From positions 1 through 38,506 of the forward strand of contig JAJDZM010000117.1 of assembly GCA_022824615.1 (NCBI GenBank): a DNA stretch of 38,506 nucleotides. Direction: 5' to 3'. This document shows, piece after piece, positions 3-17,398 of this stretch (the first letter of the stretch is position 1; the number at the start of each line of letters is the position of its first letter). The DNA is from Candidatus Binatia bacterium. GTDB lineage: Bacteria > Desulfobacterota > Binatia > Bin18. The position numbers and the translations under genes are program-made. The notes under the pieces are model-generated. The model did no database searches. It was not told the DNA's origin and saw only the letters and a program-made list of their open reading frames with translations.

Positions 3-170
3 CCGGGGGAGATCAGTCCCGAAGATGAAACAACATGGCGCTATGTCATGCGTGACCCAGATGATGTGCTGATTGTCTGCGCGGGAGCCCAAGGCGGGAG
101 CTGGTCGGCGTGCTTACCGGGCTGGGGAAATAAGTGGACGCGCAGCGTGACCGAGTTGGTGCGGATGTAA
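3..170 (+). CDS. C-terminal end of an unknown protein (partial, 5' end outside window)
   Basis: An open frame enters the window at base 3 and runs 55 codons to TAA at 168-170. The translation has a plausible protein composition, with a DPDDVLIVCAGAQGGSW core and a Trp/Gly-rich tail ending SVTELVRM. I do not recognise the family. The stop lies 25 bases before the start of the UGSC selenoprotein, on the same strand, so the two are probably co-transcribed. Only the C-terminus is visible, so no function is assigned. The other two forward frames are closed early by stops, which supports this frame. Confidence 0.55.
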   Translation, partial: PGEISPEDETTWRYVMRDPDDVLIVCAGAQGGSWSACLPGWGNKWTRSVTELVRM

Positions 171-195: not shown

Positions 196-738
196 ATGCG
201 CCGTACGGTTTTTGATCCGACTCTCCCTTTGGAAACGCAGGCCTTTGCGTATGCGCCGCGGCCCGGCGCGTTCCAGGGGCTGCGAGTCGGCGTGGTGGAA
301 AACACCAAGTTCAATTCCAAGGAATTGTTGTGCAAGGTGGCCGAGCGGCTGGAGCAGCAGCACGGCATGCATCTGGTGTCCGTGAATCGCAAGCAGTCGT
401 CCGGCCATGCCGTCAACCAGGAGGCGATTGCGCTGTTTCAGCAACAGGCCGATATTGTGCTGGCCGGTGTGGGTGACTGAGGGTCGTGCAGTTCGAGCAG
501 TGTGCTCGACGGACTGAAATTGGAGCGCGCCGGTATCCCGACCGCATCCATCGTGACCACGCCCTTTATTGCCACCGGTCGCGCCATGGTCGCCAGTTGG
601 GGGGTGCAGGACTATCAGTTTCTGGTGACTGCCCACCCCATAGCCAATCTGACAGAAGACGAGTTGGACACTCGGGCGGACGAACTGGCCGGACAGGTGC
701 TGGACTTCTTTCAAAACGCTGCGCCGACTTCGGATTGA
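196..738 (+). CDS. UGSC-family selenoprotein, selenocysteine encoded by in-frame TGA at 478-480
   Basis: One reading frame of 181 codons is split only by TGA at 478-480. Up to the TGA it encodes a 94-residue N-terminal part starting MRRTVFDPTLPLE and ending LAGVGD. After it the same frame continues with Gly-Ser-Cys, giving the U-G-S-C motif that names this family, then 82 more residues to a second TGA at 736-738. Known family members carry Sec or Cys at this position in a redox-like U/C-x-x-C arrangement; substrate and partners are not established. AGGAGG at 183-188 sits 7 bases before the ATG. A stem-loop starts 8 bases after the TGA. Automated callers would report two short genes (196-480, and 502-738 from a GTG). 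It precedes two amidohydrolases and a flavin oxidoreductase on the same strand. A sequencing error or ordinary stop is unlikely given the exact motif and frame. Confidence 0.88.
489..516 (+). promoter_or_regulatory. Candidate bacterial SECIS element
   Basis: Immediately after the Sec TGA, CAGT (489-492) pairs with ACTG (513-516) and TCGAGCA (493-499) pairs with TGCTCGA (503-509). The apical loop is GTG (500-502) and CGG (510-512) forms a bulge on the 3' side. The loop starts 19 bases after the TGA, within the short spacing usual for bacterial SECIS elements, which are read by SelB inside the coding region. The apical G and the asymmetric bulge fit the general form, though the 3-base loop is tight. 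Pairing was done by eye. Confidence 0.6.
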
Positions 739-2032: not shown

Positions 2033-3151
2033 ATGCAATTCGGTCTGCTGTACGAAATGGAAACGCCCCGCCCGTGGAACAAGCTGAGTGAGTACAATGT
2101 CTACCACGAAGCCCTGGCCCAGATAGAACGGGCCGACCAGATTGGCTTTGACTATGTGTGGGAGGTTGAGCACCATTTTCTGGAGGAATACTCCCACAGC
2201 CCGGCCCCCGAAGTGTTCTACGGTGCGGTCTCGCAGCGCACCAAGAACATCCGCATCGCCCACGGCGTGCGTCTCCTGCCGCACCGCTTCAACCATCCCA
2301 TCAAGGTGGCGGAACAGGCCGCCGTGCTCGACATTCTGAGCAATGGGCGGATGGACCTGGGCACGGGCCGGTCAACCACCGCCCAGGAGTTGGACGGCTT
2401 TGGGGTGGATTACGACCGGACACGTGAGGAGGTGCGTGAGGCCCTTGACGTGATCGTGAAGGCCTGGACTGAAGAAGTCCTGGAATACAACGGCAAAACG
2501 ATTCAGGTCCCGCCCAGGCGGGTCGTACCCAAACCTATTCAAGAGCCGCACCCGCCGATGTGGATGGCCTGCGTGGCACCGGACAGCTATGAAATGGCCG
2601 CCGACCGCGGCCTGGGCGTGCTCAGCTTCAATCTGAACTGGGAACAGGTCCAGAAGACCATGGACACCTATCGTGAGAAGTGCAAAGACCGCAGCGACGT
2701 GGTGTCGCAGGTGATTAACGAGCGGTTTGCCGGGGTAGCCATCTGCCATGTGGCCGAGAGCAAAGAGGAAGAGGAGATCGGCATCGCCGGGGCGCGCTGG
2801 TTTCTGCACAACGTGGCCAAGTTATTCGAGCCCCTGATGGTCAAGAACAATCTGTACTCGTACGAATATCTGCGTAGCCTGTTCGACCTGGAAGCGGACG
2901 CTAACGATCTGAGCGACGCGCAGATCAAAGAGCACCCCATGGTCACGGTCGGTAACCCGGATGAGGTCAACCGCAAGCTCGAAACCTTTGATCAGGCCGG
3001 GCTGGACCAGGTGATTTTCTTTAAGCAGGCCGGTCGGATTCCGCATAAGAACATCATGCGCTCGATTGATCGGATCGGGCAGTATGTGATTCCGTATTTC
3101 AATCCGCACAAAGCAACGCCGACCGAGGAAACGCTGTTCTCGGCAAAATAA
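2033..3151 (+). CDS. Luciferase-like (LLM class) flavin-dependent oxidoreductase
   Basis: The 372-residue product has the bacterial-luciferase fold signature (PF00296-type). It starts MQFGLLYEMETPRPW, has EVEHHF near residue 44, a long RLLPHRFNHPIKVAEQAAVLD segment and a DLGTGRST loop. Such enzymes are usually FMN- or F420-dependent monooxygenases or dehydrogenases in the cytosol. AAGGAG lies 7 bases before the ATG. The gene sits between two amidohydrolases in a tight same-strand cluster (gaps 52 and 26 bases), which suggests an oxygenation step feeding a hydrolytic step, although the order and substrate are inference. A second LLM-class enzyme is at 33358-34380 on the other strand and is clearly a different subfamily. 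Confidence 0.88.
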   Translation: MQFGLLYEMETPRPWNKLSEYNVYHEALAQIERADQIGFDYVWEVEHHFLEEYSHSPAPEVFYGAVSQRTKNIRIAHGVRLLPHRFNHPIKVAEQAAVLDILSNGRMDLGTGRSTTAQELDGFGVDYDRTREEVREALDVIVKAWTEEVLEYNGKTIQVPPRRVVPKPIQEPHPPMWMACVAPDSYEMAADRGLGVLSFNLNWEQVQKTMDTYREKCKDRSDVVSQVINERFAGVAICHVAESKEEEEIGIAGARWFLHNVAKLFEPLMVKNNLYSYEYLRSLFDLEADANDLSDAQIKEHPMVTVGNPDEVNRKLETFDQAGLDQVIFFKQAGRIPHKNIMRSIDRIGQYVIPYFNPHKATPTEETLFSAK

Positions 3152-3177: not shown

Positions 3178-4281
3178 ATGCTCAAACCCATTATCTCTTC
3201 TGATTCGCATATCACCGAACCACCGGGCACCTATGTGGATCGTATTGACAAGAAATATAAAGATACCGCGCCGCACATGATCCACGACGAGAAGAAGGGT
3301 GATCTATTCGTTATCAGTGGCATGAAGCAGCCGGTCCCCATGGGTCTGGTTGCCGCTGCCGGCCAGAAGGCCGAGGACCTCGCTATGTTCGGGGCCAAGT
3401 TTGAGGACCTGCACCGTGGCGGCTGGGACCCGGAAGCGCGTCTGGCCGACCAGGACCGGGACGGCGTTGCCGCTGAGGTTATCTATCCCACCGTCGGCAT
3501 GCTGCTGTGTAATCACTCCGACTTTGACTATAAGAAAGCCTGCTTTGACGCCTATAACGAATGGATTGCGGAATACTGCTCCGCCCATCCGGCTCGTCTG
3601 ATCGGCCTGGGCCAGACCGCCATGCGCTCGGTTGATGAAGGCATAGACGACCTGCGCAAGATCAAAGAGTTGGGTCTGCGCGGGGTGATGATGCCCGGCA
3701 ACCCCCAGGTGTCCGATTACGACGACCCGCTCTACGATGTGTTCTGGCAGGCGGCTATCGATATGCAGATGCCGCTGAGTTTTCACATCCTCACCAGCCG
3801 GAGCGATGTGGTCGGCTCCTCTCCACGCGGACCCAAGCTGAACGGCTTCCTGTCCATTATTCGGGGCAACCAGGACCTGATGGGGACGTTTATTCTGGGT
3901 GGCGTGTTTGAACGCAATCCCAAACTGAAAATCGTGTGTGTCGAAGCCGACGCCGGCTGGGTGCCGCACTATATGTACCGCATGGATCATGCCTACGACC
4001 GACACCGCTACTGGCTGAAACCCGGCCAGGAACTGTCAAAGATGCCGAGCGAGTATTTCAGCGAGCATATCTACACCACCTTTCAGGACGACTGGGTGGC
4101 GTTCCGCATGAAGGATATGTGCAACCCGCGCCGCCTGATGTGGGCCAACGATTTCCCGCACAGCGACTCGACCTGGCCGTGGTCGCAGGAACTCCTGAAG
4201 GAGCACACGGCACATCTCACGGAAGAAGAGAAGAACTGGATTCTTCACGACAACGTAGCCGAGCTGTACAACCTGGACTAA
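3178..4281 (+). CDS. Amidohydrolase family 2 metal-dependent hydrolase (second copy)
   Basis: A 367-residue member of the same family as the product of 826-1980. It opens with the SSDSHITEPPGTY metal-binding strand, has SFHIL near residue 200 where the barrel His is expected, and ends with WANDFPHSDSTWP near residue 322, the usual C-terminal Asp site. The two proteins differ along most of their length, so this is not a recent tandem duplication. AAGGAG 9 bases upstream supports the ATG at 3178. It is the last gene of the operon and is followed 24 bases later by a strong intrinsic terminator. Its substrate is unknown; decarboxylase rather than hydrolase chemistry is possible in this superfamily. 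Confidence 0.88.
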   Translation: MLKPIISSDSHITEPPGTYVDRIDKKYKDTAPHMIHDEKKGDLFVISGMKQPVPMGLVAAAGQKAEDLAMFGAKFEDLHRGGWDPEARLADQDRDGVAAEVIYPTVGMLLCNHSDFDYKKACFDAYNEWIAEYCSAHPARLIGLGQTAMRSVDEGIDDLRKIKELGLRGVMMPGNPQVSDYDDPLYDVFWQAAIDMQMPLSFHILTSRSDVVGSSPRGPKLNGFLSIIRGNQDLMGTFILGGVFERNPKLKIVCVEADAGWVPHYMYRMDHAYDRHRYWLKPGQELSKMPSEYFSEHIYTTFQDDWVAFRMKDMCNPRRLMWANDFPHSDSTWPWSQELLKEHTAHLTEEEKNWILHDNVAELYNLD

Positions 4282-4518: not shown

Positions 4519-4782
4519 CTAGGCGTCAACCTTCTCGGCCAGCCAGACTTTGATGAGCGACTGGTACGGAACATCTCGCTTGTTAGCCGCGATCTTGATC
4601 CGCTCCAGCAGATCGATGGGTAACCTGAGGGAAATCGCTTTGGTGGATGGTTTGAGGTTGGGGAACCGGACGCGTTCGGCCTTACTCCAGTCCACATAAT
4701 CGGTCGAATCGTGACTTTCCCAAAAGGCTTGCTCTTCCGCCTCGTTCTTGAAGGTCGGAATGGATTTACGTTTCCTGCTCAT
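4519..4782 (-). CDS. brnA: BrnA-type antitoxin (CopG/ribbon-helix-helix related)
   Basis: An 87-residue protein with the arrangement of BrnA antitoxins. An acidic N-terminal half contains EAEEQAFWESHDSTDY, which in this family wraps the toxin. The C-terminal half (KAISLRLPIDLLERIKIAA...VPYQSLIKVWL) is a ribbon-helix-helix DNA-binding domain. It follows the BrnT gene with a 17-base overlap on the minus strand, the usual toxin-first order. In characterised systems BrnA neutralises BrnT and represses the shared promoter; here that is inferred from family. It marks the left edge of the island, directly inside the palindromic repeat. Confidence 0.85.
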   Translation of the reverse strand: MSRKRKSIPTFKNEAEEQAFWESHDSTDYVDWSKAERVRFPNLKPSTKAISLRLPIDLLERIKIAANKRDVPYQSLIKVWLAEKVDA

Positions 4783-5068
4783 AACGGACTCGCTCCTTGC
4801 GGCTCATATCTCGGGCGGAGATGATGCGAATCAGGGAGTTCTCTTCTCGCAACGTCCAGGTTACATGCAGCCGTCGTCCTGCCTTGGTGACGCCGAGGGC
4901 ATGGAACCGTAGCTCGGACCGACTATGACCGGGATCGCTGACAATTAGAAGCGGTGTGTTGAAGAATACTTCCTCTGCTTCGGACTGACTGACGGCATGT
5001 TTCTCAGCACTCTTCCGGGCGTTCCCCCGGTCCCACTGAAAGCCGACGATCCGGTCAAGGTCAATCAT
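4766..5068 (-). CDS. brnT: BrnT-type ribonuclease toxin
   Basis: This is a 100-residue BrnT-family toxin, a small RelE-fold ribonuclease that blocks translation when free of BrnA. Family features visible are GFQWDRGNARKSAEKHAV near the N-terminus, then SEAEEVFFNTPLLI, an internal RxxxLGVT-like stretch and the near-invariant RIISARDMSRKERVRYE C-terminus. I start it at the ATG giving MIDLDRIVGFQWD. A longer frame to 5161 adds 31 residues with no family resemblance and runs through AT-rich sequence that looks like promoter. Its 3' end overlaps brnA by 17 bases, so translation of the pair is probably coupled. Confidence 0.85.
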   Translation of the reverse strand: MIDLDRIVGFQWDRGNARKSAEKHAVSQSEAEEVFFNTPLLIVSDPGHSRSELRFHALGVTKAGRRLHVTWTLREENSLIRIISARDMSRKERVRYEQET

Positions 5069-5187
5069 CTTTGTATATGCCCATAATATACTGAATGAAT
5101 CAAGAGATTCTATAATGACCGGCATTGAAAAGATGTGATACGGTCCAAGCTCGATACGCATTGGTGGCTAAATAGAGAGGCGTAAGA

Positions 5188-8908: not shown

Positions 8909-9883
8909 ATGAAACACGCTCAATTCTTTAACGACTTTCTCAACGATGAAGTAAATCTCAATCAATCTCGTCTTGATCGCCTAAATACCAGTGTGAAGGC
9001 CGTCAACGAATTTCTGTCTCAAAACTTGGACTCTTACAAGCGGGTTGAACGCCAGGGGTCATATGCCTTGAAAACCATCATTAAACCTGTCGATGACGCC
9101 CAAGAATATGATGCTGATATCTTGCTATACATGGCGTATGACAGAGATAAAAATCCCAGGGAATACATCGACGAACTCTATCAGTGCCTTATCAAGAATA
9201 AGGTGTATGCGGAGAAGGGGCATAGGAAAACCAGATGTGTAGTCTTGGACTATGCAGGAGACTTTCACCTGGACATTGTTCCGTGCATCGCCGGAGAAGA
9301 GGACAAGCAGTACATCTGTAACAACAAGACTAATGATTTCGAGCGCACCGACGGAACAGGGTACAGAGACTGGTTTAACGACAAGACTCACGTCACACAT
9401 GGAAACCTTAAAAGGGTTGCAAAACTCTTAAAATATCTCAGAGACCACAAGGGGAATTTCACTGCGAAATCAATTCTTCTGACAACACTCGTAGGCAATA
9501 CTGTGTCTGGTGGAAATGATGGCAACCACTTCAAAAGTCTCCCCGATGCACTGAAGACCGTTTCAAATCGAATAAACGATTTCTTGCAAAACAACCCGAG
9601 AATGCCGGGAATAGCCAATCCCGCCTTACCGGAAGAAGATTTCACACGGCATTGGGACCAAAAAAAGTACGATAATTTCAGAAGGCTGTTCAATATCTAC
9701 AACGATAAGATCAACACTGCCTTTGATGCTAAAGAGCATGACGACAGTATCGAAAAGTGGCGTGACGTATTTGGAGAGAATTTTGGAAAAAAGAAAGGGC
9801 AGGGTAACAACGGTAGCGGTAGAAAATTCAGGGAAAATACTACCCCTGTCATAGTCCCGCCTAGAAAACCATACGTGCAATGA
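8909..9883 (+). CDS. CD-NTase (cGAS/DncV-like nucleotidyltransferase) of CBASS
   Basis: A 324-residue nucleotidyltransferase that in CBASS makes a cyclic di- or trinucleotide on phage infection. The core is visible: a G-S motif (QGSYALKTIIKP, Gly50-Ser51), the metal-binding D-x-D (EYDADILL, Asp68/Asp70) and the third acid in DFHLDIVP (Asp122). The helical C-terminal half holds RVAKLLKYLRDH. The last 40 residues form a flexible basic/Gly-Asn tail ending PPRKPYVQ, the kind of free tail that E2-type partners act on in type II CBASS. AGGAG precedes the ATG by 10 bases. The stop overlaps the next start (ATGA). The gene is visibly more AT-rich than the flanking restriction genes, which suggests separate acquisition. 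Confidence 0.88.
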   Translation: MKHAQFFNDFLNDEVNLNQSRLDRLNTSVKAVNEFLSQNLDSYKRVERQGSYALKTIIKPVDDAQEYDADILLYMAYDRDKNPREYIDELYQCLIKNKVYAEKGHRKTRCVVLDYAGDFHLDIVPCIAGEEDKQYICNNKTNDFERTDGTGYRDWFNDKTHVTHGNLKRVAKLLKYLRDHKGNFTAKSILLTTLVGNTVSGGNDGNHFKSLPDALKTVSNRINDFLQNNPRMPGIANPALPEEDFTRHWDQKKYDNFRRLFNIYNDKINTAFDAKEHDDSIEKWRDVFGENFGKKKGQGNNGSGRKFRENTTPVIVPPRKPYVQ

Positions 9884-10224
9884 AGCCAACAGACAGTGAT
9901 ATCGAATGGCTGAAATGCCTTTTCCCTAGCTTATGCTATAAGCCGGAGGAGCAGAAGATCGTAGGAGAACTGAGCTTCTGTGCTTGTTATGACAAGACAT
10001 CTCAGAGGGTAAAGATTGAACTTTATGGACCTGATGACTCTATCAGAAAATCGGACGGTTTTCTTTGCGATGTGTTTGAAGTCGAAATCCTTTTGGATGA
10101 TGAGTCGATCGGAGATAACGGTTGGCCTCAGGTGCATGAGGTGGGTGGCCGGTCCAAATCTATTGCGAACAAATACGGCGTGAAGATGATCGATCTGCAT
10201 TTTTTCCCCAGCAATGGGCCATGA
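9880..10224 (+). CDS. E2-like CBASS accessory protein, truncated before its catalytic cysteine
   Basis: A 114-residue product overlapping the CD-NTase stop by four bases. Its course resembles the N-terminal two thirds of bacterial E2-like proteins in short type II CBASS: IVGELSFCACYD, then FEVEILLD, then WPQVHEVGGRSKSIA and IDLHFFPSNGP. In such proteins the LH-x-x-P-x-x-G stretch is normally followed at once by Cys-Leu-Gly with the active-site Cys. Here TGA (10222-10224) comes right after Pro, and from about 10212 the DNA reads as the end of higB in another frame. The gene therefore appears cut by a deletion or recombination and should lack conjugating activity. Assignment to E2 is from pattern recognition only; the Cys residues present (12, 19, 34, 36, 63) lie outside the expected site. 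Confidence 0.6.
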   Translation: MKPTDSDIEWLKCLFPSLCYKPEEQKIVGELSFCACYDKTSQRVKIELYGPDDSIRKSDGFLCDVFEVEILLDDESIGDNGWPQVHEVGGRSKSIANKYGVKMIDLHFFPSNGP

Positions 10225-10310
10225 CTGTGAACGGACCCTGGCGGATTTGCTTTGAGTTCCGTAAGGGCGACGCCTTTAATGTCGAGATCGTTGACTACCA
10301 CAAAGGATAG
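10212..10310 (+). pseudogene. higB: C-terminal remnant of a HigB/RelE-family toxin gene
   Basis: The frame ending TAG 10308-10310 encodes QWAMTVNGPWRICFEF followed by RKGDAFNVEIVDYHKG. This is the characteristic last third of HigB toxins (W-x-x-x-V-N-x-x-W-R-I-x-F ... D-A-x-x-V-E-I-x-D-Y-H). No HigB N-terminus precedes it; upstream DNA is the E2-like gene in a different frame. Only 29 residues follow its one ATG (10221). The HigA start is 4 bases beyond the stop, the normal higBA order. The toxin is thus broken while its tail, which contains the higA ribosome binding site, is kept. Confidence 0.75.
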
Positions 10311-10314
10311 AACC

Positions 10315-10599
10315 ATGCTCCCTACTTCACATCCCGGCAGACTGCTGAAACGCGAGCTTGAGGCGCGTAACCTGAGTGCCAACAGGTTGGCACTCGCCCT
10401 TGGCGTGCCATCCGGCCGTATCACCGATATTTTGAATGGCCGCCGGTCGATTACCGCCGAGACCGCGGTTCGGCTTGGCTGTTATTTCGGCAACCGACCG
10501 GGGTTCTGGCTCGAACTCCAGAGCCAATACGACATTGCCTTGGTCGAACGAGACCGGGGAGAAGAGATAGCTAAGCAGGTGCGACCCGCCGGGACTTGA
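10315..10599 (+). CDS. higA: HigA-type antitoxin (XRE family), orphaned
   Basis: A 94-residue helix-turn-helix antitoxin. HPGRLLKRELEARNLSANRLA-like opening, then ALGVPSGRITDILNGRRSITAETAVRLGCYFGN and FWLELQSQYDI are the standard HigA/VapI hallmarks. I choose the ATG at 10315, preceded by AAAGGA in the higB remnant; a longer frame from 10252 only adds residues read from the higB tail in another frame. Its toxin partner is truncated, so it may now act only as a DNA-binding repressor or as an antitoxin against a HigB elsewhere. It separates the CBASS genes from the restriction locus. Confidence 0.85.
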   Translation: MLPTSHPGRLLKRELEARNLSANRLALALGVPSGRITDILNGRRSITAETAVRLGCYFGNRPGFWLELQSQYDIALVERDRGEEIAKQVRPAGT

Positions 10600-10672
10600 T
10601 CTCATCACTGGCCTGGGAAACGAATGACCGCCAGACCGGGAAGACGTTGCATTGAGGGTGACGGCGCCTGTT

Positions 10673-10711
10673 CCCTCGCCCCTTGGGGGAGAGGGCTAGG
10701 GAGAGGGGTGA
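10673..10711. repeat. C/G-tract dispersed repeat
   Basis: CCCTCGCCCC is followed by TTGGGGGAGAGGG and GGGAGAGGGGTG, an imperfect hairpin plus a repeated GAGAGGG unit. Short intergenic sequences of this style are common dispersed repeats in GC-rich genomes. It lies between higA and the pentapeptide gene and has no T-run, so termination is uncertain. Confidence 0.4.
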
Positions 10712-10744
10712 TTTCGAGATAAATCCTATAGTCGGCACGCTGCG

Positions 10745-12103
10745 ATGAATCTTTTTCTTATTTTCCAGTACGGCCTTGTCGGTGCGTTTGTCGTCTTATT
10801 GGGGACTTTCCTGCTTGTCATGGTCTCCGAAAGTATGGCAGGGAGTGTTTCTCAGCTTTTCGGCTTACACACGAAAAACAAAACGCTGCAATTTCTCGGC
10901 ATCGGCATGGGCGGTGTGCTACTCGCCCTGCAAGCCCTGATGTCCTACAAACGCGCCAAGGCGTTGGAGGACACCGCAAACGCGCAGGCTGAAGCTGCGA
11001 AGGCCCAGGCCAAGGCTACGGAGGAACAGGCAAAAGCCAACCAGAACACCGAGCAGGGACAACGGCAGGAACGTCTAAAAAATGCCATTGAACACCTGGG
11101 GCATGACAATGCTTCGGTGCGTTTGGGCGGGGCTTATGAACTATTCCATCTCGCTCAAGATACGAAAGACTTACGTCAGACTGTTCTGGACATCCTCTGT
11201 GCTCATATCCGCCGGACGACGGGCGAAGACGAATATCGGAGAAAGTATAAGTCAAAACCCTCCGAAGAAATTCAAAGCCTACTTACCTTGTTGTTCGTGC
11301 AGGAGCATGAGGTCTTCAAAGGGCTGCATATTAACTTGCAAGGGAGCTGGCTGGACATGGCCAATCTCAGTGGGGCACGTTTAGAGAACGCCTTTATGGT
11401 CGGTGCGTGGCTGGAAGGGGTTGATCTCAGTAAGTCGTCTCTACAAAGAGCTGACCTTAGCGATACGCACCTGCAAATGGCTAATCTTCGTGAGGCGAAC
11501 CTTCAAGGAGCCGAGCTTTCCTGGACACGTCTACAGAGGGCTAGGCTTGGCGAAGCGCAGTTACAGGGGACTAATCTTGTCATGGCGGGCCTGCAAGGGG
11601 CTGATCTGAGCCTAGCTCGGCTACAAGGGGCCAATCTTTGGAGAGCAAAGATGCAAGGGGCCGATCTGAGCGGAGCACGGCTACAAGGGGCTAATCTGCA
11701 TGCGGCAGAGATGCCGGGGGTTAGTTTGTGCGCGGCAGAAATGCAAGGGACCGTTCTGTACGGGACAAAGATGCAAGGGATCATCAGCAGTGGAAGCGAC
11801 GGATTTTTGCCTCCGTTTGAAGAGCTAATGAAAAACAGAGTTGGCGGAGGAAGTGATCTCAACGGGATTATTTTTGAAGGAGAGTTGAGCCAGGAAGACC
11901 TGGATTCCTTTACCGAATGTTTGCCCGATAAGAAGGCAAAGGAATTGCGAGAGAAGCTGAAGCCTCACATTGGCAAGCTGGCAATTCGTGAACTGCCAGA
12001 AAGCAGCCGCGCCATTACCGGGGCCTACACCGCCGAAGAAGCCGAACAATGGATTGCCGAATACAACGAGGCCATATCGGAAGTACCTGGGAACAATAAC
12101 TGA
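10745..12103 (+). CDS. Membrane-anchored pentapeptide-repeat protein
   Basis: A 452-residue protein with two N-terminal hydrophobic segments (about 5-30 and 49-66). An Ala/Gln/Glu coiled coil follows (about 75-112, with AQAEAAKAQAKATEEQAKA character), then a small helical domain (LKNAIEHLGHDNASVRLGGAYELFHLA), and about 30 pentapeptide repeats of the A(D/N)LxxA type from about 195 to 347. A C-terminal domain of about 100 residues follows, with SRAITGAYTAEEAEQWIAEYNEA. The helical stretch plus pentapeptides recurs in bacterial membrane proteins of unknown role. Its TGA overlaps the mod ATG (TGATG), so it is translationally coupled to the type III methyltransferase. That coupling makes it a candidate extra component of the restriction locus, although function is unknown. 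Confidence 0.8.
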   Translation: MNLFLIFQYGLVGAFVVLLGTFLLVMVSESMAGSVSQLFGLHTKNKTLQFLGIGMGGVLLALQALMSYKRAKALEDTANAQAEAAKAQAKATEEQAKANQNTEQGQRQERLKNAIEHLGHDNASVRLGGAYELFHLAQDTKDLRQTVLDILCAHIRRTTGEDEYRRKYKSKPSEEIQSLLTLLFVQEHEVFKGLHINLQGSWLDMANLSGARLENAFMVGAWLEGVDLSKSSLQRADLSDTHLQMANLREANLQGAELSWTRLQRARLGEAQLQGTNLVMAGLQGADLSLARLQGANLWRAKMQGADLSGARLQGANLHAAEMPGVSLCAAEMQGTVLYGTKMQGIISSGSDGFLPPFEELMKNRVGGGSDLNGIIFEGELSQEDLDSFTECLPDKKAKELREKLKPHIGKLAIRELPESSRAITGAYTAEEAEQWIAEYNEAISEVPGNNN

Positions 12104-13656
12104 TGCCCACCCTCCACTGGCTCACCCGAGACGAAGACCTCCGCACCGCCTCCCGCGTGCCGTATCGGTTATTGGAAGAAGCGCCCGACCTGTCGGCGGG
12201 AGAGCCGGACACGGGCAACATGCTCATTCAGGGTGACAATCTGGAGGCGCTCAAGGCGTTACTGCCGTTCTATGCCGGGCGGGTGAAGTGCATCTATATC
12301 GACCCGCCGTACAACACGCACTCTGCCTTTGAGCATTACGACGACAGTCTCGAACATACGCAATGGCTGGCGATGATATGGCCGCGTCTCGAACTCCTGC
12401 GTGACTTGCTGGCTGAAGACGGTTCGATCTGGGTGTCGATTGACGATAACGAAGTCCACTATCTCAAGGTTATCATGGACGAGGTGTTTGGAAGGTCAAA
12501 CTTCCTGACCTCCTTCATTTGGAAGAAAAGCTACGGTGGCGGGGCTAAAGCAAAATGGTTTGTGGGCCTTCACGAAGAAGTCCTCTGTTACACAAAAGAC
12601 CTGAGTAAATTTCCTGAAATATTCTTGCCTCCCGACCCCGATGTCGTGAGAAAGTATTACAAGTATCAGGACGAAAAATTCGTGGAGAGAGGGCCGTATC
12701 GTTTGCAGCCATTGGCAACCACGAGCATGGATGACCGTCCCAATCTTCGATACCCGATTACACTTGAGAACGGTGAGGAGATTTGGCCGGAAAAGCAGTG
12801 GCAATGGTCAAAAGAACGTTCTTATCAGGCGCTTGCAGACGGGGAACTTGTGATTTCCAGAAGAAAGGGGAAAACGGTTGTCTCTTACAAGCAATACCTC
12901 AAAGACGAGAGAGGAGAAGAAAGAAAACGTAAGCCGCAGACCATAATTGAAGGGCATTATACGCAGCACGGAACGTATCAAAGTATGGAACTGTTCGGCT
13001 TGCAAGACAAGTTCGCTTTTCCTAAGCCCGAAGGTCTCATTGAATATATCTTTGAGGCGGCCACCAACCCCGGCGACTTGGTGCTCGACTCCTTCCTCGG
13101 CTCCGGCACCACAACGGCGGTCGCCCACAAGATGGGCCGGCACTACATCGGCATTGAGATGGGTGAGCATGCGGTGACACATTGCGTGCCGCGTCTGAAC
13201 AAGGTCATAGCCGGCGAGCAGGGCGGCATCTCAAAAAGTGTCGGCTGGCAGGGCGGGGGTGGGTTCCGTTTCTACCAGCTTGGACCGCCAGTGTTTGACG
13301 AGGCGGGGCAGATTCGAGCGGACATCCGCTTTCCGGTGTTGGCTGCCCATGTCTGGTTCAGTGAAACCGGGCATCCGTGGAACGGAGGCGGGGATTCGCC
13401 CTTTCTGGGTCTGCACGACGGCCACGCCTATGCACTGCTGTACAACGGCATCCTGGGAGACAAGCGACCGAATGGCGGCAACGTGCTGACGCGGGCCACA
13501 CTTGCTACGATTCGGGAGGAGATTGAGCGCAAGCATGCGCGCTTCAACGGTCCGCTGACCGTCTATGGTGAGCAGTCGCGGCTGGCCTCTGCTACTTTGG
13601 AACGGATTGGCGTCACCTTCAAGCAAATGCCGTATGAGGTGAAGGCAAGAACATGA
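12103..13656 (+). CDS. mod: Type III restriction-modification methyltransferase (Mod), adenine-specific
   Basis: A 517-residue beta-class amino-methyltransferase. The catalytic D-P-P-Y motif is at about 67-70 (KCIYIDPPYN), and the SAM-binding motif with F-x-G-x-G-T-T is at about 327-337 (LVLDSFLGSGTTTAVA), in the motif IV before motif I order expected of Mod. The variable middle (about 140-300) is the target recognition domain and is visibly more AT-rich than the ends. Mod methylates one strand of an asymmetric site and gives specificity to Res. It starts inside the stop of the pentapeptide gene. Its last codons (FKQMPYEVKART) recur, diverged, in front of res. No defect is visible, so modification is probably functional. 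Confidence 0.92.
   Translation: MPTLHWLTRDEDLRTASRVPYRLLEEAPDLSAGEPDTGNMLIQGDNLEALKALLPFYAGRVKCIYIDPPYNTHSAFEHYDDSLEHTQWLAMIWPRLELLRDLLAEDGSIWVSIDDNEVHYLKVIMDEVFGRSNFLTSFIWKKSYGGGAKAKWFVGLHEEVLCYTKDLSKFPEIFLPPDPDVVRKYYKYQDEKFVERGPYRLQPLATTSMDDRPNLRYPITLENGEEIWPEKQWQWSKERSYQALADGELVISRRKGKTVVSYKQYLKDERGEERKRKPQTIIEGHYTQHGTYQSMELFGLQDKFAFPKPEGLIEYIFEAATNPGDLVLDSFLGSGTTTAVAHKMGRHYIGIEMGEHAVTHCVPRLNKVIAGEQGGISKSVGWQGGGGFRFYQLGPPVFDEAGQIRADIRFPVLAAHVWFSETGHPWNGGGDSPFLGLHDGHAYALLYNGILGDKRPNGGNVLTRATLATIREEIERKHARFNGPLTVYGEQSRLASATLERIGVTFKQMPYEVKART
13617..13652 (+). repeat. Mod 3'-end direct repeat, left copy
   Basis: The last 36 bases of mod before its final codon share 31 of 36 positions with 14713-14748, by direct comparison. 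The two copies lie on either side of the DUF3800 gene. Confidence 0.8.
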
Positions 13657-13715
13657 TTGGTTGACGAGTGGCAGGACAATTTGTACCTACTCATCCTCCT
13701 GCAAAACGGTTCAGC

Positions 13716-14603
13716 ATGACTTGGTTACTCTTTATTGACGAGAGCGGACACGATCACAGAACCACGCCCTATGAGGTTCGGGGCGGGTTTGCGATTCACG
13801 TTCGTTCGCTCTGGGCCTTCGTGCAGAACATGCGGCGGCTGGAGATCAATTGTTTCGGCTGCTCGTTGCACGAATACAAGAAAGAGATAAAAGGCTCTAC
13901 CTTGCTCGACCGGAAACGCTACAAATTCGCCGGACAGAGCGGACTGCTAAGCGATGCAGATAGGCGCAATCTCTGCCGGTCCTTTCTGGCCAAGGGCCTC
14001 ACGCAAGAGATACCCAGCGCGAATGAATTTACGGCCTATGGCCAAGCCTGCCTCCAGATGGCGCGAGGGACAATTGCTCTCCTGCAACAACATGAGGCCG
14101 TATTGTTGGCTTCCGCCATACCGCGAGATGTTGCCAAGCCGTCGGGCTACCGGGTCGATAACTATCTGAGGAAAGATATTGTCTTCCTGCTTGAGAGATT
14201 CTTCTACCTCCTGGAGGAAAAACGTGAACACGGCGTAATCGTCATGGACGAAACCGAGAAACGCCAAGATCGAAGATTTGTCACCAGACTGGAAAGATAC
14301 TTCACGAAAACCAGTGAAGGTCAGCATAGAACGGAGTGGATCGTACCAACTCCGTTTTTCGTCTCATCCGATATGACATACGCTATCCAAGCAGCGGATG
14401 TGTGTATCTATTGCATAAACTGGGGATTTCGTATTCCCCAGCGTCAGATGGACGCCGAGCATCGCGCCGAAATCGCTAATATGTTCGGGCGCGCCCTAGC
14501 GAGCCTTCAATTTCGCGGGCAGAGGGAGAGAAACGGCCGTATCTTCGAAACTTACGGAATCGTCTATGTCTCTGACCCATATGAAGCCAGACCGGCCCCA
14601 TAA
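13716..14603 (+). CDS. DUF3800-domain protein inserted between mod and res
   Basis: A 295-residue protein starting MTWLLFIDESGHDH, the D-E-S-G strand that opens DUF3800 proteins (RNase H-like fold, often near restriction and other defence genes). Later parts fit too: LHEYKKEIKGS, then VIVMDETEKRQDRRFVTRLERYF and DMTYAIQAADVCIYCINWGFR, a late Asp-rich helix typical of the family. The ATG at 13716 gives this family start; an upstream GTG at 13668 would add 16 unrelated residues. Family members are predicted nucleases or nucleic-acid binders without established substrate. Normal type III loci have mod and res adjacent or overlapping, so this gene is an insertion into that operon. Confidence 0.82.
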   Translation: MTWLLFIDESGHDHRTTPYEVRGGFAIHVRSLWAFVQNMRRLEINCFGCSLHEYKKEIKGSTLLDRKRYKFAGQSGLLSDADRRNLCRSFLAKGLTQEIPSANEFTAYGQACLQMARGTIALLQQHEAVLLASAIPRDVAKPSGYRVDNYLRKDIVFLLERFFYLLEEKREHGVIVMDETEKRQDRRFVTRLERYFTKTSEGQHRTEWIVPTPFFVSSDMTYAIQAADVCIYCINWGFRIPQRQMDAEHRAEIANMFGRALASLQFRGQRERNGRIFETYGIVYVSDPYEARPAP

Positions 14604-14712
14604 AAAAAGAGGCAACGCTCCGTCCGCCACTCCTGCACTTCATGTGCATGACTGCTTACGAAGCCGAGCCTCCACACCTGAAGGTAAGCTGTTGTCGCCA
14701 GACAGTCAACCT

Positions 14713-14748
14713 CTTCAAGCAGATGCCGTATGATGTGAAAACAAGGAC
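14713..14748 (+). repeat. Mod 3'-end direct repeat, right copy, supplying the res ribosome binding site
   Basis: This stretch reads LFKQMPYDVKTRT in the frame of res and matches the end of mod (TFKQMPYEVKART) at 31 of 36 bases; most differences are silent. It contains AAGGA (14743-14747), placed 8 bases before the GTG start of res. In compact type III loci the end of mod directly precedes res, so this looks like the tail of an older mod gene left behind. Confidence 0.75.
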
Positions 14749-14755
14749 CAGCTCT

Positions 14756-17398
14756 GTGCAACTCAAGCAATATCAGGCCGATGCGCTGGCCGTTCTGCGC
14801 CGCTTCTTTGAAGAAGCCCGCATGGCCGGGCCGAAGAACGCCTACGAAACCATTACCAAGGAATCCGACTATGCGGACCGGCTCGGACGCTATGGTGGAA
14901 CGTATCGCGCCCCGCTCGCGGACCTGCCGAACGTACCGTACGTCTGCCTGCGCCTGCCGACCGGCGGTGGCAAAACCATTCTGGGCGCTCACGCCGTTGC
15001 CGTGGCGCGTGATGCCTGGGTAGAGAAAGACTATCCGCTGGTTCTGTGGTTGGTGCCGACAAAGACCATCCGTTCGCAAACCGTCGAGGCTTTGAAGAAC
15101 GCCGGTCACCCGTATCGGCAGGCGCTGGATGAAGACTTTGACGGTCGGGTACGCGTGTTCGATATTGCGGACTTTACCCATATTCGTCCCCACGACCTGC
15201 GCGACCACTGTTGCATTGTGGTCGGCACCATTCAGACGCTACGGGTCAAGAGTACCGAAGGCCGTAAGGGCTATGCCCACCACGAGGAAATGGAACCGCA
15301 TTTCTCCGCTGTCCCAGACGCTACGCCGGGTCTGGAGAAACTGGAGGGTGGCGGCGTCAAGTTCTCCTTTGCCAACCTGTTGCATATCCACCGACCGCTA
15401 ATGATCGTGGATGAAGCCCACAACGCCGTGACCGGCCTGACGCGCGAGATGCAAACGCGGGTCAATCCGTGCGCGATTATCGAGTTCACCGCCACTCCCC
15501 GGCCCAAGTCGAATATCCTGTACAGCGTCTCCGCCCTGGAACTCAAACGCGAAGACATGATCAAGCTGCCGATCATGTTATCCGAGCACGACACCTGGCA
15601 AGACGCGGTCACCGGCGCGATTGCGAATCGGGCGTCTCTGGCTGAAGCCGCCAAACGAGACGCCGCCTACCTCCGGCCCATTGTCCTGTTCCAGGCTCAG
15701 AAGAAGAACCAGGAAATTACAGTCGAAGCCCTGAAAAAACATCTGACGGATGTCGAGCACCTCCCCGACCACGCAATCGCTGTCGCCACTGGCGATCAGC
15801 GAGAATTGGATGGTATCGACCTGTTCGACCCGCGCTGTCCGATTGAATACGTCATCACCGTCGAAGCCCTGAAAGAAGGCTGGGACTGCTCCTTCGCCTA
15901 TGTGTTTTGCTCGGTCTCGCGTATCCACAGCGCAACAGACGTGGAACAGCTATTGGGCCGCGTGCTGCGCATGCCCTACGCTAAGCGGCGCAGAACTGCT
16001 GAGCTGAACCGGGCGTATGCCTATCTGTCCGAGCCGTCCTCGGGGACATCCGCTCGAGCATTGACCGATAAGCTCGTTGCGATGGGGTTTGAGGAAGATG
16101 AGGCGAGCGACAATATTGAGCAGATACAGGGAGAGTTGGACGGCAAGGACAGTCTTTTCAGCACCAGCGACCAGCCGCCGCCATCCTTCCGACATACACT
16201 TTCGGTGACACCGGAGGCGCTGTCAGCCTTGAAGCAGACACAACGAGACGGTGTGACAGTACGCGCGACTGGTGGCGGGACAGTTGAGATCGAGATTGTT
16301 GGCCCTGTGGACGACGCCCTGGAAAAGGTCATCTTTTCAGCAGTTCCAAAGGCGGAACGCGCGCGGGTTGCCGAGTCATTTGAGAAGTACAGAAAGTTGG
16401 TAAGGAGCCAGTTGTCGCCTGCGGAACAAGGGGCGACGTTTGAGATTCCGCGTCTCATGGCGGAGCTCCAGGGAGAGCTTGAGTTCGCCGATACCGACGT
16501 GTTCATGGAAGATCACGATTGGTCGCTGCTCAACCACTCACCGCAATTGGACGAGCATGAATTCACGATCAGGGAGACTGCGCGCAGTTTTGAGATCGAC
16601 ACTGACGGCAGGCACGTCACCTATCAGTTCGCGGGCGAGGAGGAACAACTCGCGCTGAACGTAGACGTAGCCGGCTGGACGCCTGAAGCTCTGGTCCTGT
16701 GGCTCGACCGACAGGTACGTCAGCCCGACATCGGGCAGGGTGAATTGATCAAATGGCTCTCCGAACTTGTTGGCCATCTCATAAACAGACGTAGCCTGCA
16801 TATCGCCGCGCTCATGCGGTGCAAATTCATCCTGGCGCGGAAAATACGCGACAAGATTGGAGCCATTCGGCAGCAGGAGCGGAAGAGCGTCTATCAACAG
16901 CGTCTTTTCACACCCGGGGCAAAAGTCGAAGTATCCTTCGACGCTACCTTCTCATTCAAGGCTGGGATGTATCAGGACCAGCGGCGTTACCGAGGGCATT
17001 GGAAGCCGGGAAAGCATTTTTTAGGCCCTGACCACGTTCCGGCCTTTGACGGGGCAGACGATGGCGAGGAAGTACGTTGCGCTCAGGCTCTCGACAGTCT
17101 GCCTGGCGTGAAATACTGGATTCGTAATGTGGCCCGCCACACGGAATCATTCTGGCTGCCGACCGCTACGGACAAGTTCTACCCCGACTTCGTGGCGCTG
17201 CTGAACGATGGGCGGCTGCTCGTTGTTGAATATAAGGGCGCGCATATCGCCGATGGAGCGGATACCGCGGAGAAACGAACCATCGGCGAACTGTGGCAAC
17301 AAAGAAGCAACGGCAGGGGTCTTTTCCTCGTTGTTGAAAGACGCCTCAACGGACGGAACGTCTACCAACAGTTGATGGAGAAAATCGGCACTGCCTGA
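14756..17398 (+). CDS. res: Type III restriction endonuclease subunit (Res)
   Basis: An 880-residue SF2 helicase-nuclease from the chosen GTG (MQLKQYQADALAVLRRFF). Motifs are Walker A P-T-G-G-G-K-T at about 68-74, D-E-A-H at about 219-222, motif III T-A-T-P (FTATPRP) and a motif VI-like region VEQLLGRVLRMPYAKRR. The C-terminal nuclease core is D-x(about 13)-E-x-K in YPDFVALLNDGRLLVVEYKG (about 811-829). With Mod it translocates and cuts unmethylated DNA. A longer frame from ATG 14642 adds 38 residues read from non-family DNA and the mod-tail repeat; AAGGA at 14743 and the family N-terminus favour GTG 14756. No frameshift or missing motif is visible. Confidence 0.92.
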   Translation: MQLKQYQADALAVLRRFFEEARMAGPKNAYETITKESDYADRLGRYGGTYRAPLADLPNVPYVCLRLPTGGGKTILGAHAVAVARDAWVEKDYPLVLWLVPTKTIRSQTVEALKNAGHPYRQALDEDFDGRVRVFDIADFTHIRPHDLRDHCCIVVGTIQTLRVKSTEGRKGYAHHEEMEPHFSAVPDATPGLEKLEGGGVKFSFANLLHIHRPLMIVDEAHNAVTGLTREMQTRVNPCAIIEFTATPRPKSNILYSVSALELKREDMIKLPIMLSEHDTWQDAVTGAIANRASLAEAAKRDAAYLRPIVLFQAQKKNQEITVEALKKHLTDVEHLPDHAIAVATGDQRELDGIDLFDPRCPIEYVITVEALKEGWDCSFAYVFCSVSRIHSATDVEQLLGRVLRMPYAKRRRTAELNRAYAYLSEPSSGTSARALTDKLVAMGFEEDEASDNIEQIQGELDGKDSLFSTSDQPPPSFRHTLSVTPEALSALKQTQRDGVTVRATGGGTVEIEIVGPVDDALEKVIFSAVPKAERARVAESFEKYRKLVRSQLSPAEQGATFEIPRLMAELQGELEFADTDVFMEDHDWSLLNHSPQLDEHEFTIRETARSFEIDTDGRHVTYQFAGEEEQLALNVDVAGWTPEALVLWLDRQVRQPDIGQGELIKWLSELVGHLINRRSLHIAALMRCKFILARKIRDKIGAIRQQERKSVYQQRLFTPGAKVEVSFDATFSFKAGMYQDQRRYRGHWKPGKHFLGPDHVPAFDGADDGEEVRCAQALDSLPGVKYWIRNVARHTESFWLPTATDKFYPDFVALLNDGRLLVVEYKGAHIADGADTAEKRTIGELWQQRSNGRGLFLVVERRLNGRNVYQQLMEKIGTA

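Follow-up and report, generated by a model that had tools for sequence, protein, structure and literature searches.

Among the systems closest to the locus analysed here are the selenoenzymes of the GrdB and PrdB types, in which, according to the relevant passages of PMC13188914, PMC9908766 and PMC10838667, a selenocysteine (Sec) subunit acts on amino compounds together with a carbonyl-bearing second subunit. GrdB enzymes resemble the module described below in pairing a Sec subunit with a second subunit and, as passages of PMC10838667 indicate, in forming paralogue families with different substrates. D-proline reductase, PrdA/PrdB, is similarly built from a small Sec subunit and a larger partner, but the likeness is drawn through the PrdB side only, and just 2 of 56 UGSC proteins match the PrdB model TIGR04483. 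Fluoroacetate reductase (FarB/FarE), a GrdB-type Sec protein for which cleavage of a bond other than C-N is proposed in the passages of PMC10838667 that treat it, offers a parallel for new substrates; unlike the subunits of the UGSC module, FarB and FarE are described there as true homologues of GrdB and GrdE, and they occur in anaerobes.

The UGSC family is documented in passages of PMC2398784, PMC9312934 and PMC13188914. In its UGSC passages, the 2008 ocean survey (PMC2398784) counts 255 UGSC sequences in an ocean-metagenome table, reports a fusion of UGSC to a protein named 'Unknown_1' and supposes UGSC to be thioredoxin-like. The pertinent passage of PMC9402790 assigns to UGSC 8.2% of selenoprotein genes, and the UGSC entry of a 2016 table (PMC5029168) reads '26' and '33', probably organisms and genes. 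UGSC ranks among the most abundant selenoprotein families of ocean metagenomes, and the passages on it give no function. Neither a regular partner nor a kinship with GrdB is stated in the UGSC passages of PMC2398784, PMC13188914, PMC9312934, PMC9402790, PMC5029168, PMC7539508, PMC5330540 and PMC7435645, and genomes with up to 23 UGSC copies are not described in the passages on the family. What is new here is the module of a partner protein and UGSC, together with its tie to GrdB; the family itself was already known, and the gene described below is a further member of it.

The in-frame TGA and selenocysteine incorporation

The window, by which we mean the whole 38,506-nt stretch of DNA analysed, is contig C245 of genome G000, a 4.98-Mb assembly in 308 contigs with an estimated completeness of 89.6% and contamination of 4.6%. 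On its forward strand, the frame at positions 196–738 encodes a protein of 180 residues with Sec at residue 95. As originally predicted, the frame is interrupted only by TGA 478–480 and ends at TGA 736–738, so that one gene uses TGA both for Sec and as a stop. The internal TGA is followed directly by GGG TCG TGC (Gly-Ser-Cys), and its residue, U95 of the U-G-S-C motif, occupies a column that is invariant (U or C, both written C) in the 56 UGSC proteins of alignment A2, which comprises the window protein and sequences from 55 of 68 loci. The read-through protein matched PF24696 (UGSC) with 179.9 bits (E 6.1e-53, cut-off 25) and NF041046 with 138.1 bits (cut-off 125), which bears out its assignment to a known selenoprotein family; the parts on either side of TGA 478–480, taken separately, each matched the family as well. 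The homologues continue through the TGA position and showed none of the truncation that would have spoken against read-through. The statement that ordinary gene callers read two short genes here held for the first half, an open reading frame of 94 aa at 196–480, but not for the second half, which has no in-frame open reading frame of at least 80 aa. The window protein has Ser101 at the position of the motif's third Cys, which is Cys in 93% of A2; this third Cys is thus probably not essential.

The original prediction depended on a Sec machinery in the same genome, and all of its parts were found above the family cut-offs: SelA (C202:27917–29248) adjoining a tRNA-Sec with anticodon UCA (C202:29293–29384), SelB on contig C127, and SelD within a 759-aa frame on contig C190. 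UGSC occurs at seven loci of the genome, every one of which contains a single in-frame TGA, and the six other paralogues are 27–35% identical to the window protein. UGSC genes were present in 38 of the 395 genomes of our phylum sample, and an in-frame TGA occurred in 83 of the 90 matches listed for these 38 genomes (up to eight candidates scored per genome); one of these 83 contains TAG and TAA too. No UGSC match was obtained in 14 control genomes. Three genomes (G033, G208 and G252) have 15–23 UGSC matches each, mostly in frames of about 530–640 aa with one TGA, as expected of fusions, and some of their matches have no TGA or two TGAs.

A bacterial SECIS-like hairpin, UCGAGC-AGUGU-GCUCGA, lies at positions 493–509 (+), 12 nt from the TGA to the stem, and consists of a 6-bp stem (493–498/504–509) and the 5-nt loop AGUGU. 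We evaluated its conservation in an alignment of 72 sequences, obtained from 99 distinct sites after 27, mostly of a common marine type, had been dropped by hand for size. Pairing was retained in 83.3% of cells, 37 cells differed at both positions of the pair, and covariation scored 0.285; none of 500 shuffles reached any of these values, and versions of the hairpin slid along the alignment attained at most 50.9% pairing, 23 cells and a score of 0.134. With all 99 sites, 85.5% of cells paired and 38 were changed on both sides, again reached by 0 of 500 shuffles for either. Two weaker measures, both-side change in five of six pairs and the occurrence of 12 pair types, were equalled by 145 and 26 of 500 shuffles, respectively, and the outermost pair was unpaired in 24 of the 72 sequences. 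The window itself shows a compensatory change, with A-U in place of the usual U-A at columns 19/29. The mean folding z-score just past the TGA was −1.14 (74 sites, one of them misplaced), whereas four other offsets gave −0.12 to −0.33. Folded alone, the window sequence was not unusually stable (z +0.30), the hairpin being seen in the centroid only, and an Rfam search of the window returned nothing at gathering scores. The stem-loop predicted downstream of the TGA is thus borne out by position and covariation but not by significant stability of the window sequence taken by itself.

These results leave little room for readings without Sec. It is highly improbable that TGA 478–480 is an ordinary stop or a sequencing or assembly error, leaving two short genes or a pseudogene. 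The unremarkable stability of the window hairpin and the incomplete, 308-contig assembly would accord with such a reading, whereas the in-frame TGA, shared by all seven paralogues and by 67 of the 69 external loci (drawn from the best of at least 580 stretches; see below), together with the covarying hairpin, the full Sec machinery and the conservation of both halves argue against it. Codes in which TGA is reassigned occur in some bacteria, which is what can be said for a genome-wide reassignment to an amino acid such as Trp or Gly; we regard this as the most improbable reading of all, since gene 196–738 itself ends at TGA, the homologue from Natrialba (locus L102) has Cys at the aligned site rather than Trp or Gly, and the genome encodes SelB and a tRNA dedicated to Sec. 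Judged from its sequence, gene 196–738 almost certainly encodes a genuine selenocysteine protein.

The partner protein and its linkage to UGSC

In five other UGSC loci of G000, a protein of 346–380 aa, hereafter the partner (345–380 aa overall), is encoded directly upstream of UGSC; the partners of these loci share the motif G-x-TDGL-x-x-PPT. The window retains the 3′ end of such a gene at positions 3–170 (+), about 55 C-terminal codons ending in TAA 168–170, its 5′ part having been lost at the contig edge. Positions 15–161 matched positions 300–350 of the partner profile A3 (built from 52 of 79 loci) with E 2.1e-5. The UGSC gene therefore does not lead its operon, contrary to the original prediction. 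The partner of locus L139 is the nearest relative both of the window fragment (47% identity to residues 291–341) and of an N-terminal fragment located where contig C231 ends (residues 17–289), and the nearest relative of the window UGSC in A2 is the UGSC of L139; the contig break thus probably cuts a single partner gene. The seventh UGSC of G000 sits at the end of contig C146, where a downstream partner could be lost, and a profile search found no partner match on that contig.

None of the 52 partners in A3 matched Pfam-A or NCBIfam at E 0.01, and PDB sequence searches with UGSC and the partner gave nothing meaningful. Cys78 and Asn117-Gly118-Pro119 are invariant in the partner. Fumarase and cyanuric acid hydrolase were the best PDB matches listed for its fold, and we rejected them as their TM-scores to the query, about 0.2–0.27, are too low. 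With no confident fold match (TM at most 0.27 among the matches listed), a role of the partner in substrate binding is a guess.

To assess the linkage from the partner side, we searched another collection with the partner only. Of the confirmed stretches, which numbered at least 580, we kept the 80 best, representing 79 distinct loci. As the query was built from partners adjacent to UGSC, this sample is not blind, and the linkage may be looser among more remote partners. UGSC accompanied the partner at 69 of these 79 best loci: within 250 bp downstream in 63, farther downstream in five and upstream in one, leaving ten without it. The 69 UGSC genes in this best-of-580-or-more sample have TGA in 67 cases and Cys in one (Natrialba asiatica), and one (L111) is cut by the contig end before the motif. 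In Natrialba asiatica DSM 12278 (L102, 5354–7887), the stop codon of the Cys-type UGSC gene overlaps the start of the partner gene, and a DUF6282 gene then follows. As for the ten loci of the same sample that lack UGSC, six are from Poribacteria, L113 ends 197 bp downstream of the partner, and L067, L069 and L077 have no UGSC in the 2–6 kb downstream; a tblastn search of all ten with the A2 sequences gave no hit at E 1e-3. The Poribacteria loci (L114, L123, L125, L132, L133 and L135) encode a shortened partner of about 310 aa with no UGSC nearby, which may act by itself or together with a different subunit.

Outside G000, 9 of the 30 loci examined have the partner and UGSC fused in one frame of 582–604 aa with a single TGA. 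'Unknown_1' of PMC2398784 is probably the partner. As the UGA would interrupt such fusions, gene callers probably split or truncate the enzyme in many genomes. Copy numbers are also close: UGSC/partner matches, fragments included, numbered 7/7, 12/12, 23/24, 17/19, 15/16 and 4/3 in six genomes chosen for having several UGSC genes, the seven partner matches of G000 including the C231 and C245 fragments that are probably one gene. Across 46 loci, the distance matrices of partner and UGSC correlated with r 0.834, a value attained by none of 1000 permutations (maximum 0.256); the correlation partly reflects common descent. The paralogous pairs within G000 are better evidence, though few; five of them (10 comparisons) gave r 0.844. 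Adjacency, fusion, near-equal copy number and parallel divergence all point to one two-subunit enzyme, and on these sequence-level grounds we are highly confident that the partner and UGSC form a two-component module.

The module also occurs beside Sec genes. Of the 79 partner loci kept as the best of at least 580 stretches, 12 contain a tRNA-Sec (L083, L084, L091, L095, L097, L101, L105, L107, L120, L121, L124 and L142), and 12 of the 21 tRNA genes detected in the loci are of this kind. The order SelB-type protein, tRNA-Sec(tca), partner and UGSC, all on one strand and with the first two directly upstream of the module, recurs in seven of them (L083, L084, L091, L095, L097, L120 and L121), as compact clusters located at about 3.1–10 kb of each locus. 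In L091 and L121 the series continues with a protein of Pyr_redox-AIRS composition, as in an Ndh-SelD fusion. This arrangement is consistent with UGSC as one of the main users of Sec in bacteria with such clusters.

Kinship with GrdB and the proposed enzyme

We compared the 56-sequence UGSC alignment by hhalign with a profile of the GrdB Sec domain built from ten loci of the same phylum. The comparison gave 96.0% (E 4e-9, as a single comparison) over 81 columns and placed Sec on Sec. The two halves of the alignment gave 94.8% and 96.1%, the seven G000 paralogues 91.8%, and the alignment with the motif masked 67.1% (E 5e-5), while the controls remained low: five column shuffles at most 0.3%, a reversed profile 2.1%, and UGSC against GrdE 2.4%. 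Among NCBIfam models, GrdF matched 18 of the 56 UGSC members, GrdB 18, various_sel_PB 7, PrdB 2 and GrdH 2; the GrdB-type matches are weak (E 1.5e-5 to 0.01), and most members have none. The match of the window protein to PrdB (TIGR04483) lies around Sec, with E 6e-4 and 19.3 bits against a cut-off of 300. A relation of UGSC to short PrdB-like proteins was not significant (1.9%, three compared).

The GrdB, GrdF and GrdH models (TIGR01917, TIGR01918, NF040794 and NF040795) share with UGSC a U-G-[ST]-C motif, and UGSC has, like GrdB, E..GIP-like and PHP[IL]-like blocks downstream. Unlike GrdB, UGSC has no long N-terminal part, and the match, restricted to its second half (residues about 82–178), covers only about 80–90 residues. 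These comparisons of sequence profiles indicate that the second half of UGSC very probably belongs with the GrdB superfamily. In the predicted structure (pLDDT 91.8), UGSC is an alpha/beta domain of Rossmann-like type in which Sec immediately precedes the helix 96–111, and the best PDB folds were FMN reductases, with flavodoxins lower, at TM-scores of about 0.4–0.5.

The partner differs from the GrdE and GrdI that accompany GrdB: a relation to GrdE or GrdI-like sequences, picked for comparison by their place beside grdB, was rejected at 0.2% and 0.1%, respectively, and the partner was unrelated to full GrdB as well. The carbonyl subunit of GrdB enzymes is thus missing. GrdA (PF04723) had no match in five of the seven genomes searched (G000, 89.6% complete, as well as G198, G208, G252 and G367) and matches in the other two, G033 and G026. 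With a partner that is not GrdE and no GrdA found in G000, GrdB-like chemistry would have to finish without the acetyl-phosphate branch. Elsewhere in G000, a partial match to PF07355 (GRDB) was found at L160 (C36:6875–7294), with no TGA in the matched part. The hosts seem to differ too: many UGSC relatives belong to marine and soil groups that are likely aerobic, unlike the typical hosts of GrdB enzymes, which come mainly from anaerobes.

On balance we favour the view that partner and UGSC constitute a two-subunit, GrdB-like selenoenzyme, with a partner unrelated to GrdE, that would cleave a C-X bond reductively. Reductive C-X cleavage, a claim made by analogy, is plausible but slightly short of an even call. 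The partner would bind or activate an organic substrate, with the invariant Cys78 and Asn117-Gly118-Pro119 possibly involved. Sec95, at the start of the helix that follows a beta strand in the Rossmann-like domain, could serve as the nucleophile on an electrophilic carbon and displace the leaving group, which is an amine in GrdB and might be N, S, O or halogen for UGSC. The resulting Se-alkyl or selenenyl state may be resolved by the invariant Cys98 as a selenylsulfide, which a cellular thiol system would then return to the reduced form, GrdA taking no part. The many paralogous pairs per genome would be substrate-specific versions.

Two other functions have to be weighed against this proposal. 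The supposition of the 2008 ocean survey, that UGSC is a thioredoxin-like selenol/thiol oxidoreductase, would make the partner its redox client, and the UxxC spacing does resemble a redox motif. The confidently predicted Rossmann/flavodoxin-like model speaks against a thioredoxin-like fold, however; no recognised thioredoxin-fold entry was among the 50 PDB hits listed, and the nine NCBIfam families matched by the 56 members include GrdB-type models and none of the thioredoxin family. We consider this reading quite unlikely. A selenium enzyme of some other chemistry, such as a non-reductive lyase, transferase or hydrolase or a detoxifying peroxidase, with Sec as nucleophile or redox residue but without reductive C-X cleavage, has rather more in its favour: the partner family, absent from Pfam and NCBIfam, has an invariant Cys78, the neighbouring genes are highly varied, amidohydrolase-type genes follow UGSC in the window, and the DUF6282 gene after the Natrialba partner looks by eye like a metal-dependent hydrolase. 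It is nevertheless unlikely in view of the kinship with GrdB, whose characterised relatives cleave reductively according to the relevant passages of PMC13188914 and PMC10838667.

Returning to the GrdB-like reading, partner and UGSC may represent a new class of two-component selenium enzyme, a proposal that we make tentatively, with the balance tilting somewhat against it. Such a class would join a GrdB-derived Sec subunit to an unrelated substrate subunit of new fold, occur in bacteria of marine and soil habitats as well as, with Cys in place of Sec, in at least one haloarchaeon, be clustered in some alphaproteobacteria with selB, tRNA-Sec and selD, and number up to two dozen pairs or fusions in a genome, each specific for its substrate. 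If this is true, selenium would be central to the carriers' use of some class of organic nutrients. With a regular partner, the kinship with GrdB and Natrialba asiatica DSM 12278 as a named strain that has the Cys form, the function of UGSC becomes a question that a defined experiment can address.

Genes around the module

The genes that follow UGSC in the window, all on the forward strand, encode an Amidohydro_2 family protein of 384 aa (826–1980; PF04909, E 2.2e-30), with a GTG start preceded, by eye, by a GGAGG-like site, a luciferase-like (LLM class) flavin-dependent oxidoreductase of 372 aa (2033–3151; PF00296, E 1.5e-54) and a second Amidohydro_2 family protein of 367 aa (3178–4281; PF04909, E 3.5e-26). 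The amidohydrolases and the flavin oxidoreductase predicted as the operon context are therefore real, but this setting is not conserved among the loci examined and thus says little about the substrate. Other UGSC loci of G000 have MFS, cyclase, SMP-30 or other neighbours. Outside G000, we scanned 99 of 145 same-strand neighbours after manual removal of the other 46, most of which were frames of very small or very great length; SelB was the commonest (8), followed by thiolases (5), with Bac_luciferase at 2 and Amidohydro_2 absent from the 25 families listed for these 99. An attempt to read the substrate from genomic context was given up, there being no widely shared third gene and, in some loci, Sec-machinery genes. 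Three of the seven G000 UGSC loci (the window, C254 and C217) have an LLM-type protein no more than about 5 kb away, a proximity that is given no weight here. The varied context and the many paralogues together suggest substrate diversification.

Farther along the window, a type II toxin-antitoxin pair lies just downstream of the operon on the reverse strand (4519–5161), consisting of a CopG-type antitoxin (PF12441, E 9e-37) and a BrnT ribonuclease toxin (PF04365, E 2e-22). A defence-like group of genes occupies positions 8909–17398 (+) and encodes a SMODS/DncV-type nucleotidyltransferase (CBASS-like), a pentapeptide-repeat protein, an N6/N4 DNA methylase and the res subunit of a type III restriction system.
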